Shown piece after piece: positions 57,872-63,656 of a DNA stretch of 64,000 nucleotides. This DNA is from Jeotgalibaca dankookensis (GTDB taxonomy: Bacteria; Bacillota; Bacilli; Lactobacillales; Aerococcaceae), in NCBI RefSeq assembly GCF_002005405.1, contig NZ_CP019728.1:620001-684000 (forward strand). Reading direction: 5' to 3'. The notes below the pieces were generated by a model. It saw nothing but the letters and a program-made list of their open reading frames with translations. It was not told the DNA's origin and ran no database searches. Each line of letters starts with the position of its first letter. Position 1 is the first letter of the stretch. Both the position numbers and the translations under genes were made by a program.

Positions 57872-58432
57872 ATGATGAAGGCGTCATTAGAAGATAAAAA
57901 GTCTTTCTTAACTTGGTTTATCCAGAATAATCAATTGAAACGCCGCGAATCATTGTGGATTTTAAATTACCTGCTCAACCATGAGCAATTATTAAAAAAT
58001 GTTCATTTTATAGAAGAAGTATCGCTAACTAATCGCGGTATGGGTTTAGCTACAATTGAGAGTGAACAAGATCCATTTGTTTATTATAAAGACGGGCGAA
58101 AATTCGAAGATCCAGAACAAGCATTTCATGATTTAAGATTAAATTGGCAAGAAACCTTTTATTTAGAACTTTATTTTGATAATGCTTATCAAGTACTCTC
58201 CGCTTATGGTATTCTAGAACAGAATCCAAACATTGAAGAAGGATCAGACATGTCGTTTGAATTAGGAGAAAAAGTAGAGAGTTCTTTAAACCGATTAGCC
58301 TGGAAAGAACGTAAACGCCAATTACTCCTACTTATCGATCAAGCACTTAGTGATCAAAACGAAGAAAAGTTTCAATCTTTCACGGATGAATTAAGAAAAA
58401 TTGATGAAAAAATAAAAGCTAATGACTTATAA
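57872..58432 (+). CDS. ypiB: YpiB/ReoY-family protein (UPF0302)
   Basis: This soluble 186-residue protein has the family pattern KKSFLTWFIQNNQLKRRESLWILNYLL near 8-34 and NVHFIEEVSLTNRGM. A C-terminal IDEAL-like basic/acidic helix (LLLLIDQALSDQNEEKFQSFTDELRKI) is near 150-178. The Listeria homologue ReoY (YpiB family) controls ClpCP-dependent breakdown of MurA and so peptidoglycan synthesis; that role is inferred here. AAAGGGGTGGG precedes the start; the second ATG at 57875 is an equal alternative. It lies between ypiA and cca in one probable operon. Confidence 0.85.
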   Translation: MMKASLEDKKSFLTWFIQNNQLKRRESLWILNYLLNHEQLLKNVHFIEEVSLTNRGMGLATIESEQDPFVYYKDGRKFEDPEQAFHDLRLNWQETFYLELYFDNAYQVLSAYGILEQNPNIEEGSDMSFELGEKVESSLNRLAWKERKRQLLLLIDQALSDQNEEKFQSFTDELRKIDEKIKANDL

Positions 58433-58444
58433 AATGGTGATAGA

Positions 58445-60028
58445 ATGGGTTTAAAAATGATTGATATTGATAAAATTCCAGAATTTAAAAAAGCAAGTTC
58501 TTTAATTGCTAAAATAGAAGCGGCGAATTATGAAGCATACTTTGTTGGAGGCGGTGTTCGCGACACGCTCTTAAACCTTCCGATATCTGATATTGATATC
58601 GCTAGTAGTGCCACACCAGATGAAATTCAAAGGATTTTTCCAGTTACCTTTGATGTTGGGATTAAACATGGAACTGTAATGGTGTTACAAGATAACGAAA
58701 CTTATGAAATAACAACATTTCGAACAGAATCAAAGTATGAAAATTTTCGTCGGCCAGAAAAAGTAGCCTATGTTAGAAGCCTTGAAGAAGATTTAAAAAG
58801 ACGTGATTTTACAATCAATGCGATTGCACTAGATCGAAAGGGTTATCTTCAAGACCCTTTTAATGGTGAGCGTGATATTGAATTACAGTTAATCAGAGCG
58901 GTTGGCAATCCAATCGAGCGTTTTAGGGAAGATGCGTTACGAATGATGCGAGCAGCGCGCTTTATTAGTCAGTTAAATTTTGATATTGAAAGGGAAACGA
59001 AAGAAGCTGTTATAGATTACCATCCGCTTTTATCAAAAATTGCTGTAGAAAGAATCCGAGAAGAATGGACTAAGCTGTTATTAGGACGCAATCGTAAAGG
59101 TGGCATCAAATTCTTCGTTGAAACACGATTATTTCATATGTGTCCCGGATTTCAAAATAAAGATAAGCATCTCGTTGACCTGGCTTTATTTCCTTTAAGG
59201 TTTGAAAGTTCACTTAGTGCTTGGACTAGTTTGCTTTACTTTTTAAAGATAGATGAAACAGATGTGGATGCTTTTTTACGCGCATGGAAACTTTCAAACA
59301 AAGAAATTAATGATACAAAGAGGGCATACCATGCGCTCCATAAGAGATTAGAGTGTTATTGGGATTATTCACTACTCTTTCAAACAGGGTTACCCATTGC
59401 ATTAGAGGTTGAAGGTCTGATTGCTGGCTTTGGCTTGGATAATGATTTTGAAGGCCTTTTGGCGATGGGTAGAACAATTCCTATTCATACTGTTAAAGAT
59501 CTTAAAGTGGATGGAAAAGATATTATGGCGGTTTTAAGTATGCAGCGTGGTGGCCCATATCTAGGGAAAATACTTGAAGAAGTGAAACAAAGGGTACTTA
59601 ATGAGAAGCTTGAAAATGATAAACAAGCAATTATGACTTTTATTGAAAAAAGAAGGTTGATTTATTTGGATGAGGTGTTCGAAAAACGATATCTTGTAGA
59701 AGAAAAAGATACTGCCATTGAAATGGGATCTGGTGATTTACCTGTTCTTGCTTCACCTAGCTTAATTGCTTTCATGGAAAACACTTGTAAACATATGATG
59801 ATGAATTTATTAGATGAAGGTGAGACATCCGTCGGAACCTTTATCAGTATGAAACACAGTGCTCCAACTAATGTAGGTGAAAAGGTAGTCATTGAGGCTC
59901 GCATTAAAGAATTAAGTGGCAGTAAATATTCATTTTCAATTGTAGCCAAGTCTCAAGACTTAATCATCGCAATGGGAGAGCACACGCGCTCAGTTGTTAA
60001 TATCGATCGTTTTATTAAAAGTATATAA
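58445..60028 (+). CDS. cca: CCA-adding tRNA nucleotidyltransferase fused to a FlK-like thioesterase domain
   Basis: The first part (about 1-402) is a class II tRNA nucleotidyltransferase, which builds or repairs the 3' CCA end. It has the head motif VGGGVRDTLL and catalytic DIDIA near 34-55, RRDFTINAIA, the EDALRMMRAARFISQL motif and the usual C-terminal end VDGKDIMAVLSMQ ... LENDKQAI. The frame then continues into about 110 residues of hot-dog fold resembling fluoroacetyl-CoA thioesterase FlK. Features are MGSGDLPVLASPSL, then FMENT, GETSVGT, MKHSAPT and GEHTRSVV. The FlK triad Thr-Glu-His maps to Ser437, Glu445 and His471. The usual CCA enzyme is about 400 residues, so the extension is real unless a stop was lost. 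An internal TTG start at 59666 with AGAAGG 9 bases before it could also yield the thioesterase alone. The substrate of the added domain is unknown. Confidence 0.85.
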   Translation: MGLKMIDIDKIPEFKKASSLIAKIEAANYEAYFVGGGVRDTLLNLPISDIDIASSATPDEIQRIFPVTFDVGIKHGTVMVLQDNETYEITTFRTESKYENFRRPEKVAYVRSLEEDLKRRDFTINAIALDRKGYLQDPFNGERDIELQLIRAVGNPIERFREDALRMMRAARFISQLNFDIERETKEAVIDYHPLLSKIAVERIREEWTKLLLGRNRKGGIKFFVETRLFHMCPGFQNKDKHLVDLALFPLRFESSLSAWTSLLYFLKIDETDVDAFLRAWKLSNKEINDTKRAYHALHKRLECYWDYSLLFQTGLPIALEVEGLIAGFGLDNDFEGLLAMGRTIPIHTVKDLKVDGKDIMAVLSMQRGGPYLGKILEEVKQRVLNEKLENDKQAIMTFIEKRRLIYLDEVFEKRYLVEEKDTAIEMGSGDLPVLASPSLIAFMENTCKHMMMNLLDEGETSVGTFISMKHSAPTNVGEKVVIEARIKELSGSKYSFSIVAKSQDLIIAMGEHTRSVVNIDRFIKSI

Positions 60029-60219: not shown

Positions 60220-61173
60220 ATGAAGAAAATACTTATATTTATCCTGATGCTTTCCGTTTCATTTAGCTTAGTAGCTTGTACCACAGATGGAAACGATGCT
60301 TCATCAGGAGAGGCGAATGAAAATCTTAGAATGGGATATATCACAATGGATCTGGGGAATCCTTATTTCGTTAGATTAGTAGATGGTATGGAGGAAAAAG
60401 CTGAAGAATTAAACATAGAACTTAGTATTCACGATGGCGAAAATGAAGTGGAACCTCAAATAAGAGCGATGGAAAATCTCATTACGCAGCAAGTAGATGC
60501 CATTATACTGAGTGCAAACGATTCACAGGCCCTAAATGCTATGGTCAAAGAAGCGCAAAATGCATGTATACGAGTGATTGCTGCGAATGGGCCAGTAGAA
60601 GAACCTGATGCATTTATAGGTTCCATAGAATATGATAACGGCTTCCAAGCGGGCGAAATAGCAGGTGAATATATAGCAGAACATTTAAATGGAGAGGCAA
60701 AAGTAGCTATCTTGCAATTATCGACCATACCAGCTGCCCTTGAGAGAGCCCAAGGACAAAGAGAAGGATTGTTGTCTTTGGCTCCAAATGCACAAATTGT
60801 TGGCGAACCCAATGCTAGTACAAGAGAAGGTGGATTGTCGGCTATAGAAACGTTGCTACAAACTCACCCAGATTTGAACGTCGTCTTAGGTGTCAACGAT
60901 GACTCTGTTCTTGGCGCTTACCAAGCCATGAAGGCAGCGGGAAAAGAAGGAGAAGATATCGCTTTAGTTGGTTTTGACGCCATAGAAGAAGCTCTGCTAA
61001 AGGTCAAAGAGGGCGGAATATATCGAGGAACGATAGATATAGCGCCGTTTGAAAGCGGCAAAGTCATTATAGAAACGGCAGCTAAAGTAGTAGAAAAAGG
61101 TCCCATAGAAGAATTGATAGAATTCCCAGTTACAAAAGTGACTGAAGAAAATGTAGATGAATTTTTAGATTAA
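60220..61173 (+). CDS. sugar-binding lipoprotein, RbsB type
   Basis: This extracellular substrate-binding lipoprotein of 317 residues belongs to the ribose/galactose/autoinducer-2 class (Peripla_BP_4). A signal peptide ends in the lipobox SLVAC (Cys near 20). The mature protein shows the two-lobe pattern: GYITMDLGNPYFVRLVDGMEEKA, DAIILSANDSQALNAMV, then VVLGVNDDSVLGAYQAMKAAG and LVGFDAIEEAL. GGAGGAAGG precedes the ATG. It is the first gene of a binding protein-ATPase-permease operon. The sugar cannot be told; no kinase, mutarotase or LacI regulator accompanies it within the window. Confidence 0.88.
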   Translation: MKKILIFILMLSVSFSLVACTTDGNDASSGEANENLRMGYITMDLGNPYFVRLVDGMEEKAEELNIELSIHDGENEVEPQIRAMENLITQQVDAIILSANDSQALNAMVKEAQNACIRVIAANGPVEEPDAFIGSIEYDNGFQAGEIAGEYIAEHLNGEAKVAILQLSTIPAALERAQGQREGLLSLAPNAQIVGEPNASTREGGLSAIETLLQTHPDLNVVLGVNDDSVLGAYQAMKAAGKEGEDIALVGFDAIEEALLKVKEGGIYRGTIDIAPFESGKVIIETAAKVVEKGPIEELIEFPVTKVTEENVDEFLD

Positions 61174-61212
61174 TGACAAGTAACCGACATTTGATTGGCG
61201 GTTCATTTGTCA
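61174..61212 (+). promoter_or_regulatory. intercistronic stem-loop between the binding protein and ATPase genes
   Basis: TGACAA (61174-61179) pairs with TTGTCA (61207-61212), and AACCG (61182-61186) with CGGTT (61199-61203). There is no T run. Such hairpins often protect the upstream mRNA and raise the yield of binding protein. Confidence 0.6.
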
Positions 61213-61225
61213 TATGGAGGAATAG

Positions 61226-62713
61226 ATGGAAAACGATATTTTAAGAATAGAAAACGTTACAAAAGAATACCCAGGCGTGACAGCACTAAAGGATGTCTCA
61301 ATCACTTTTGAAAAGGGTAAAATACATGGCTTAGTAGGAGAAAATGGTGCTGGAAAATCGACACTTATAAAATTACTAACTGGTGCTATAGATAAAACTT
61401 CGGGGAAAATTTACTATAAAGGGCATGTCTTGGAGAACAATACACCCATAAAAAGTTTAAACATGGGAATTGTACCAGTTTACCAAGAATTAAATGTGAT
61501 TCCTGCACTTTCGGTATCTGAAAATATATTTTATGGACATGAAAAAATTAAGGGGAAAATTTTAGATAAAAAATATATGCGGGACAAAACGATTGAACTT
61601 CTCAAACAAGTGGGCCTTAATGCCTCTCCTCAAACCATAGTAAGAGATATGGGTATTGGGAATCAACAATTAGTCGAAATATCAAAAGCACTCATAAAAG
61701 AAACGGACGTATTGATATTAGATGAACCGACCACCTCCCTTACGGATGTAGAGGTAAAAAACCTCTTTCGTATATTGCAAAATCTTAAAGAAAACGGGGT
61801 AAGTATTATATATATCTCCCATAAATTGGACGAGGTACTTCAGATGTCAGATACAATTACCGTCTTAAGAGATGGAGAAGTAATAGATACAAAACCTGCA
61901 CAAGGATTGGATGAAGAAAATTTAATAAGTATAATGGTTGGTAGAGAACTCTCAAGAAGTAAAAGAAGCGAAGATAAAATGATTCAAAAAGAAAAGGTCC
62001 TTGAACTTAGAAACGTTAACACAAATAAGATTAAGAATATATCCTTTCATTTATTAAAAGGTGAAATACTCGGTGTTGCGGGTCTTATGGGCTCCGGAAG
62101 AACAGAGTTGGCAGAAGCAATATTCGGGATAGACAAGCTAAATTCTGGAGAATTTTTTATAAATGGTAAATTAAAAGAAATTAATAGTCCTAAAGACGCT
62201 GTTGAAGAAAACATTGCTTTTATAACAGAAGATAGGAAAAGCCTAGGTCTGATGCTTCATCTGTCCTTACTTGAAAATGTTACTTATGTTTCTCTTGATA
62301 AGATAACTAAAAACGGTGTTATTAATAAAAAAGAAGAAAAACAAGTCGTAGCAGATATCCTTGAAAAATTAAATGTCAAATACGCTTCACTAGACGAAAA
62401 AATTCTGAATTTAAGCGGTGGAAATCAGCAAAAGGCCGTCATAGCAAAGTGGTTGCTCTCAGAGGCCCAAATATTTATTTTTGATGAACCTACTCGTGGA
62501 ATAGACGTTGGTTCTAAGGAAGAGATATACGGTATATTAAGAGGTTTAGCTAAAGAAGGGAAATCTATTATTCTGATTTCTTCAGAAAATGAAGAAATTA
62601 TCAATATAACAGATAGAGTCATGATAATGAGTAATGGAGAAATAGCCTCAGAGTATAATTCCAAAACACTCACAGCCCACACAATATTTAAAGATTCGTC
62701 AAGTCTATTATAG
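61226..62713 (+). CDS. rbsA: sugar ABC importer, double ATPase subunit, RbsA type
   Basis: This 495-residue protein with two fused nucleotide-binding domains powers the monosaccharide importer. Domain 1 has Walker A GENGAGKST near 35-43, the signature MGIGNQQLVEISKAL and LILDEPTTSLT. Domain 2 has the relaxed Walker A GLMGSGRTE, signature LSGGNQQKAVIAKWL and IFDEPTRGIDVGSKEEIY. This is the carbohydrate uptake class 2 (CUT2) layout. GGAGG lies before the ATG, just after the stem-loop. The permease gene follows after 10 bases. Ribose is only one possible substrate of the class. Confidence 0.9.
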   Translation: MENDILRIENVTKEYPGVTALKDVSITFEKGKIHGLVGENGAGKSTLIKLLTGAIDKTSGKIYYKGHVLENNTPIKSLNMGIVPVYQELNVIPALSVSENIFYGHEKIKGKILDKKYMRDKTIELLKQVGLNASPQTIVRDMGIGNQQLVEISKALIKETDVLILDEPTTSLTDVEVKNLFRILQNLKENGVSIIYISHKLDEVLQMSDTITVLRDGEVIDTKPAQGLDEENLISIMVGRELSRSKRSEDKMIQKEKVLELRNVNTNKIKNISFHLLKGEILGVAGLMGSGRTELAEAIFGIDKLNSGEFFINGKLKEINSPKDAVEENIAFITEDRKSLGLMLHLSLLENVTYVSLDKITKNGVINKKEEKQVVADILEKLNVKYASLDEKILNLSGGNQQKAVIAKWLLSEAQIFIFDEPTRGIDVGSKEEIYGILRGLAKEGKSIILISSENEEIINITDRVMIMSNGEIASEYNSKTLTAHTIFKDSSSLL

Positions 62714-62723
62714 GAGAATAAAG

Positions 62724-63656
62724 ATGGAAAAAGTTAAGAGAACAGGGATTTTCACATATGGTATATTGATATTTTTAATTGTATTATTTGTCGTATTGTC
62801 ATTTAGTAGCTCCTATTTTTTCACAATTGGTAATTTGACTACGGTTTTACGACAAGTAGCAGTAGTAGGCATAATTACCGTCAGTATGACGATGATTATA
62901 CTAACAGGAGGCATAGACTTATCAGTTGGGTCTATGTTAGGACTTTGCGCTGTTATTTTGGCAAAACTCATGGTTCAAGGTACAAATATGATTTTAGCTA
63001 TAATCATTACACTTGTTGTCGGTACGATTCTTGGGTTGTTTAATGGGTTTTTAATAAATGAAATCAACATTTCCCCTTTAATTTCTACTCTTGGAACAAT
63101 GACTATATTCAGTGGTGCTACCTATATACTAACAGGAGGTGAAGGAATTTTTGGCTTTCCCAGCCAGTTTTCTTTTATAGGACAAGGTTATGTATGGAAC
63201 GTGCCGGTTCCGATAATTATTCTTGTCTTCGTCTATGCCTTTGGCTTTTTTGTATTAAACAATACCCGCTATGGCAGATACCTTTATGGTATTGGAGCCA
63301 ATGAAAAAGCTTCAATTCTATCGGGTGTAAATGTTAAAAAAGTAAAATATATTGCTTACGCGATGTCTGGTTTATTGTCATCTTTAGCTTCAGTCGTTAT
63401 GCTTTCTAGAGTAAATAGCGCCCTTCCAAACTTAGGGAGTGGTTTAGAGTTTGATGTCGTAACAGCAGTCGTCTTGGGTGGTATAAGTGTCAATGGCGGA
63501 GAAGGGAAATTGCAGGGGGTCGTTATAGGGCTACTTATCATAGCGATACTCTCTAATGGTATGGTTCTATTAGGTGTGGGGAACTATTTCCAAACTGTTG
63601 TAAAAGGGCTCGTCCTCCTTATTGCTGTTGGGATTGATAATATTTCAAAAAAATAG
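62724..63656 (+). CDS. rbsC: sugar ABC importer permease, RbsC type
   Basis: This integral membrane permease of 310 residues has about ten hydrophobic helices. The family signature MTMIILTGGIDLSVGSMLGLCAVI lies near 54-77. The coupling region NNTRYGRYLYGIGANEKASILSGVNVKKVK is near 176-205, and GLEFDVVTAVVLGGISVNGGEGKL follows. It probably forms a homodimer, since only one permease gene is present. GGAGAATAAAG precedes the ATG. No terminator was identified in the 63657-63804 gap, which holds only A/T-rich DNA and one promoter-like motif. Confidence 0.9.
   Translation: MEKVKRTGIFTYGILIFLIVLFVVLSFSSSYFFTIGNLTTVLRQVAVVGIITVSMTMIILTGGIDLSVGSMLGLCAVILAKLMVQGTNMILAIIITLVVGTILGLFNGFLINEINISPLISTLGTMTIFSGATYILTGGEGIFGFPSQFSFIGQGYVWNVPVPIIILVFVYAFGFFVLNNTRYGRYLYGIGANEKASILSGVNVKKVKYIAYAMSGLLSSLASVVMLSRVNSALPNLGSGLEFDVVTAVVLGGISVNGGEGKLQGVVIGLLIIAILSNGMVLLGVGNYFQTVVKGLVLLIAVGIDNISKK

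Follow-up and report, generated by a model that had tools for sequence, protein, structure and literature searches.

A gene joining a CCA-adding enzyme to a FlK-type thioesterase domain in Jeotgalibaca, and its probable origin in a Lactobacillales gene pair

The cca-flk gene and its neighbourhood

The window analysed here, a stretch of 64,000 nucleotides from Jeotgalibaca dankookensis (contig NZ_CP019728.1, positions 620,001 to 684,000), carries on its forward strand a gene, cca-flk (58445–60028, +), that translates into 527 amino acids followed by one terminal stop, bearing out the single uninterrupted frame described in an earlier note on this DNA. Upstream lies a gene for a UPF0302/IDEAL (ReoY-like) protein (57872–58432, +), recognized from its Pfam/NCBIfam matches and its place in a conserved gene order, and downstream a set of sugar-type ABC transporter genes (60220–63656, +) separates cca-flk from dinG, found at position 684415 of the genome (window 64415), 0.4 kb beyond the window end. 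Among the genomes compared, the transporter genes occupy this place in the present genome only; the relatives have dinG there, together with a small conserved protein. Well beyond the genera in which the two genes are fused, one finds the order TPR protein – reoY – (mazG-like, dapB-like) – cca – flk – small protein – dinG, its genes being named for the most part from the starts of their sequences. Because the whole neighbourhood is conserved, the cca-flk pair is weak evidence of a shared function, and its conservation alone says little on a functional link.

The first 404 residues (58445–59656, +) form a complete class II CCA-adding enzyme. This part exceeds the equivalog cut-off of NF009814 (NCBIfam, CCA tRNA nucleotidyltransferase; 466 bits versus 290, residues 13–403), aligns to PDB 1miv with an E-value of 3e-89, and matches the Pfam families PF01743, PF12627 and PF13735, with PolyA_pol at residues 31–151 (E 1.8e-36), the RNA-binding domain at 178–235 and tRNA_NucTran2_2 at 252–400. 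The motifs of the family are present as D49-I-D51 (DxD), R119-R120-D121 (RRD) and E162-D163-A-L-R166 (EDxxR), and those of J. caeni are identical except for I50V. The fusion proteins of relatives begin at the residue corresponding to Met5 (58457), so translation may really start four codons downstream of 58445.

The remainder (59666–60028, +) would be a free FlK of 120 residues if translation started internally. It contains the FlK hot-dog domain PF22636 at residues 418–519 (59696–60001, +), with 96.1 bits against a cut-off of 27. In the alignment to the FlK structure 3kuv, S437, E445, G464 and H471 fall on positions 42, 50, 69 and 76, exactly matching the earlier proposal that Thr42, Glu50 and His76 of FlK correspond to Ser437, Glu445 and His471; position 42 of 3kuv itself is a serine, Thr42 being the wild-type residue of FlK. 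The earlier division of the frame into a complete class II enzyme and a FlK-type domain, including the boundary between them, likewise agrees with Pfam and NF009814. As the identity to FlK is only ~30%, its substrate is not to be carried over, and a sequence of this kind does not imply fluoroacetyl-CoA. Note that a structure prediction of the fusion from two sequences reached a pLDDT of 30 and was left unused.

Spread of the fusion and the gene pair behind it

We observed the open fusion in 6/6 Jeotgalibaca genomes and in 13/13 genomes of the sister genus, g19, with proteins 60–71% identical to that of the window and a PF22636 score above the gathering cut-off in every one of the 19. The earlier note had proposed counting the fusion in related genomes and aligning the linker; the count, and a junction common to all fused proteins, both indicate a genuine fusion. 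In a tree of the CCA parts, the fused proteins form a single clade with a support of 100/100. The tree of the FlK domains alone leaves the fused domains of Jeotgalibaca and g19 apart, which hints at an independent fusion in each, but a single clade is not rejected (p-AU 0.44), and one event is favoured by the CCA tree and by the junction common to both. The presence of the fusion in all genomes of both genera and the single clade of the CCA parts establish that it is old and has been kept.

The fusion is absent from the family's 19 remaining genera, whose CCA proteins are of ordinary length, as spot checks bore out, and, judged by frame length and match strength, no further case appeared in samples of 395, 300 and 199 genomes from the order, the class and the phylum, respectively. 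One genome (G762) has a single weak FlK match (2.5e-11) in a 457-aa frame. An apparent cca-dinG fusion in genus g9 (G034, locus L147), seen as an open frame of 1265 aa, proved to be two genes that share a frame but are separated by a stop and only 10 bp. No description of the cca-flk fusion or gene pair, or of a link between the two activities, was found in the literature searched, which covered subscription journals thinly, and the CCA-FlK architecture is apparently undescribed.

In 53 of the 55 sampled FlK genomes from three other Lactobacillales families, Enterococcus-like and Lactobacillus-like ones among them, stand-alone flk follows cca immediately and on its strand (f2, 5/6; f3, 24/25; f8, 24/24; adjacent pairs at loci L047–L050, L059–L086 and L088–L108). 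The gap between the two genes ranges from -56 to +140 bp, mostly from -17 to +38, and a 4-bp overlap of the ATGA type is frequent. Stand-alone FlK proteins are mostly 117–126 aa long, and the FlK part of the fusion has an equal length. As flk stands directly behind cca in these relatives, often overlapping it, the fusion appears to derive from the conserved gene pair by loss of the stop between neighbours. The earlier note held that relatives with two separate genes would reduce the fusion to a sequencing error or a recent mutation; such relatives do exist, but they imply descent from a gene pair and not a mistake in the sequence.

In f4, f6 and the rest of f1, flk is found away from cca. Outside the Lactobacillales the adjacency was seen at none of 8 loci from other Bacilli and none of the 14 from other classes of Bacillota at which FlK could be located again. 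In the latter classes (loci L131–L146), flk often lies near ndk, FtsH-like, HTH regulator (possibly NAD-biosynthesis) and formate-THF-ligase-like genes; these neighbours, named by eye from sequence starts only, hint at a housekeeping role. Within the order, many genomes have cca and lack FlK.

Junction and putative internal start

The junction reads R-R/K-x-I-Y-L/M-D-E in every fused protein, mostly with a K in front, in short K-R-R-x-I-Y-L. In the DNA of the fused genes this corresponds to AAR-AGR-AGR, then 9 nt, then TTG (ATG in G005). In the window, the Shine-Dalgarno (SD)-like stretch AAAAGAAGG (59648–59656, +), which encodes K402-R403-R404, stands 9 nt before the TTG of Leu408 (59666–59668, +), a probable internal start codon at the place where stand-alone FlK proteins begin; the equivalent purine-rich stretch is AAGAGGAGG in G002 and AAGAGGAGA in G004. 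A TTG or ATG occupies the old FlK start in 17/19 fused genes, the exceptions being CTG in G003 and TTA in G001. The unfused relative at locus L097 preserves the arrangement that preceded fusion: its cca ends in ...KRRMI-stop, coded AAAAGGAGA ATG ATA TGA / AAAAGGAGAATGATATGA, and overlaps the start of flk.

As a control, synonymous codons were shuffled within the codon usage of the gene concerned. The shuffled genes showed a start codon with an equal or better SD sequence with P 0.013 for the window gene and 0.0015, 0.003 and 0.115 for the others of four Jeotgalibaca genes, and with P 0.04–0.08 in g19; the SD strength is moderate in g19 and in the window (-5.8 to -6.0 kcal/mol). Between the two genera, synonymous codon identity peaks at residues 400–408, which rank first of 521 positions, and a peak of this height was reached by 0/3000 permutations at that place and 13/3000 gene-wide, although the four Jeotgalibaca sequences are related rather than independent and single pairs are mostly not significant. 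The junction thus combines an SD-like sequence, a proper spacing before a start codon and conservation at the nucleotide level. Because the SD-like stretch and the TTG/ATG coincide with the gene's highest synonymous conservation, we infer that the former ribosome-binding site still functions and that the fusion gene probably yields free FlK from within as well.

Selection on the FlK domain and explanations of the fusion

The fate of the fused domain differs with the presence of another flk. Scored with a profile of 73 stand-alone domains, it reaches 120–139 bits in the 16 genomes whose only FlK it is, against 98 (G003), 79 (G002) and 62 bits (G001) in the three that carry a separate flk. In these three the GSG motif is lost from the fused domain. 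The catalytic positions are kept in 18/19 fused genes, the exception being G001, where the catalytic His and Gly are replaced (H to Y, G to S). The internal start is lost in two of the three (G001 and G003). They cluster in the CCA tree with weak support, and the decay may be one event. The second flk of these Jeotgalibaca species is at loci L051, L052 and L053 (G002, G003 and G001, in that order); in two of the species it neighbours recQ and a small conserved gene.

Omega is 0.046–0.082 for the fused FlK part, 0.035 in G001, 0.014–0.043 for the CCA part and 0.066 for the adjacent separate flk of Enterococcus-like genomes, these values being rough, with synonymous change near saturation and no rise in the three decayed genes. 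Outside those three, the FlK part is under purifying selection. Since the domain is intact where it is the sole copy and degenerate beside a separate flk, its function seems not to need the CCA enzyme; a detached FlK, this suggests, relieves the fused one of its duty, and the function under selection would be that of an independent thioesterase, an activity predicted from the conserved residues.

The reading we prefer, to which we give a probability of about 0.6, is a stop-loss fusion of coupled neighbours that left an autonomous thioesterase and probably two products, the 60-kDa fusion and a free FlK of 13 kDa. The tight cca-flk pair would be ancestral and still present in the Enterococcus-like and Lactobacillus-like families, and the stop between the genes would have been lost in the common ancestor of Jeotgalibaca and its sister genus. 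In the resulting chain, a CCA-adding enzyme of the usual kind would be followed by an equally usual FlK-type acyl-CoA thioesterase, probably active. What had been the ribosome-binding site of flk inside the 3′ end of cca would have been retained and translated as K-R-R, with the TTG or ATG at the old start still allowing the free protein to be made. Both enzymes would most likely be independent, the fusion mainly coupling their expression. Among the three roles suggested in the earlier note, the co-expression of two unrelated enzymes accordingly fares best, because the FlK domain decays beside a separate flk and an internal sequence resembling a ribosome-binding site is conserved; for its other two suggestions, tRNA deacylation and acyl-CoA sensing, we found no positive evidence.

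A functional coupling, in which the fusion places the thioesterase where it can act on an acyl group on or close to the 3′ end of the tRNA, or on an acyl carrier inhibiting CCA addition, is unlikely, and no observation here calls for it. The conservation of the pair in three families and of the fusion in two genera would fit it, as would the fact that the degenerate FlK domains of G001–G003 were never deleted, but a detached copy evidently suffices, given that beside a separate flk the fused domains lack GSG, and that of G001 also the active-site His and Gly. A distance between flk and cca is moreover the rule in f4, f6, the rest of f1 and the other Bacilli and Bacillota sampled, and the many Lactobacillales with cca and no FlK also speak against it. 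Equally improbable is a structural role, in which the hot-dog domain, a fold that pairs up, would serve chiefly to dimerise or stabilise the CCA enzyme, with catalysis secondary. The retention of the decayed domains of G001–G003 agrees with such a role, notably that of G001, kept despite the loss of its active-site His and Gly and with an omega that is low although synonymous change is saturated; against it stand the conservation of the catalytic positions in all other fused genes and the CCA enzymes of all other genera, which work without a hot-dog domain.

A shared physiological task, in which the thioesterase removes acyl or aminoacyl groups at the tRNA 3′ end, or acyl-CoA(-RNA), during CCA synthesis or repair, is slightly less likely still; if true, the pair across the Lactobacillales and the fusion would point to a connection, still undiscovered, of tRNA maturation with the metabolism of acyl-CoA. 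We consider it very improbable that the domain is an acyl-CoA sensor tuning tRNA maturation: the physical link and a CoA-binding family are all that favours it, the catalytic residues are kept and not lost, the domain decays where a second copy exists, and no precedent was found in the literature searched. Lastly, a sequencing error, an annotation or assembly artefact or a very recent mutation, for which no point can be adduced, is refuted by 19 independent genomes that have diverged to ~60% identity and are all open.

Comparison with known systems

Overall, the locus adds to the CCA enzymes an apparently undescribed domain architecture together with its origin in a Lactobacillales gene pair, and this pairing of tRNA end synthesis with an acyl-CoA thioesterase poses a functional question in tractable Lactobacillales. 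The fusion shares all domains and the full length of the class II CCA tRNA nucleotidyltransferases (NF009814; Geobacillus stearothermophilus, 1miv), but at its C-terminus it continues for 120 residues past the point, near residue 400, at which 1miv and the CCA proteins of the family's 19 other genera stop. With the fluoroacetyl-CoA thioesterase FlK (PF22636; 3kuv) it shares the fold family and positions 42, 50, 69 and 76; unlike FlK, the domain in the window is attached to a CCA enzyme and has Ser instead of Thr at position 42. The stand-alone flk behind cca in Enterococcus-like and Lactobacillus-like genomes has an equal gene order, the same domain and an SD sequence inside the 3′ end of cca, and differs in that a stop separates the two genes.

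The CCA protein of the E. coli type carries a C-terminal HD hydrolase domain that acts on phosphoesters; it is likewise a CCA enzyme followed by a C-terminal hydrolase, but the HD domain is unrelated to the hot-dog thioesterases. In infB, cheA and clpB, a long and a short product are made by means of an internal start. The short product proposed here would differ from theirs in being a whole separate enzyme, the relic of a former second gene, whose ribosome-binding site has turned into protein sequence (K-R-R) and has apparently kept its old job.
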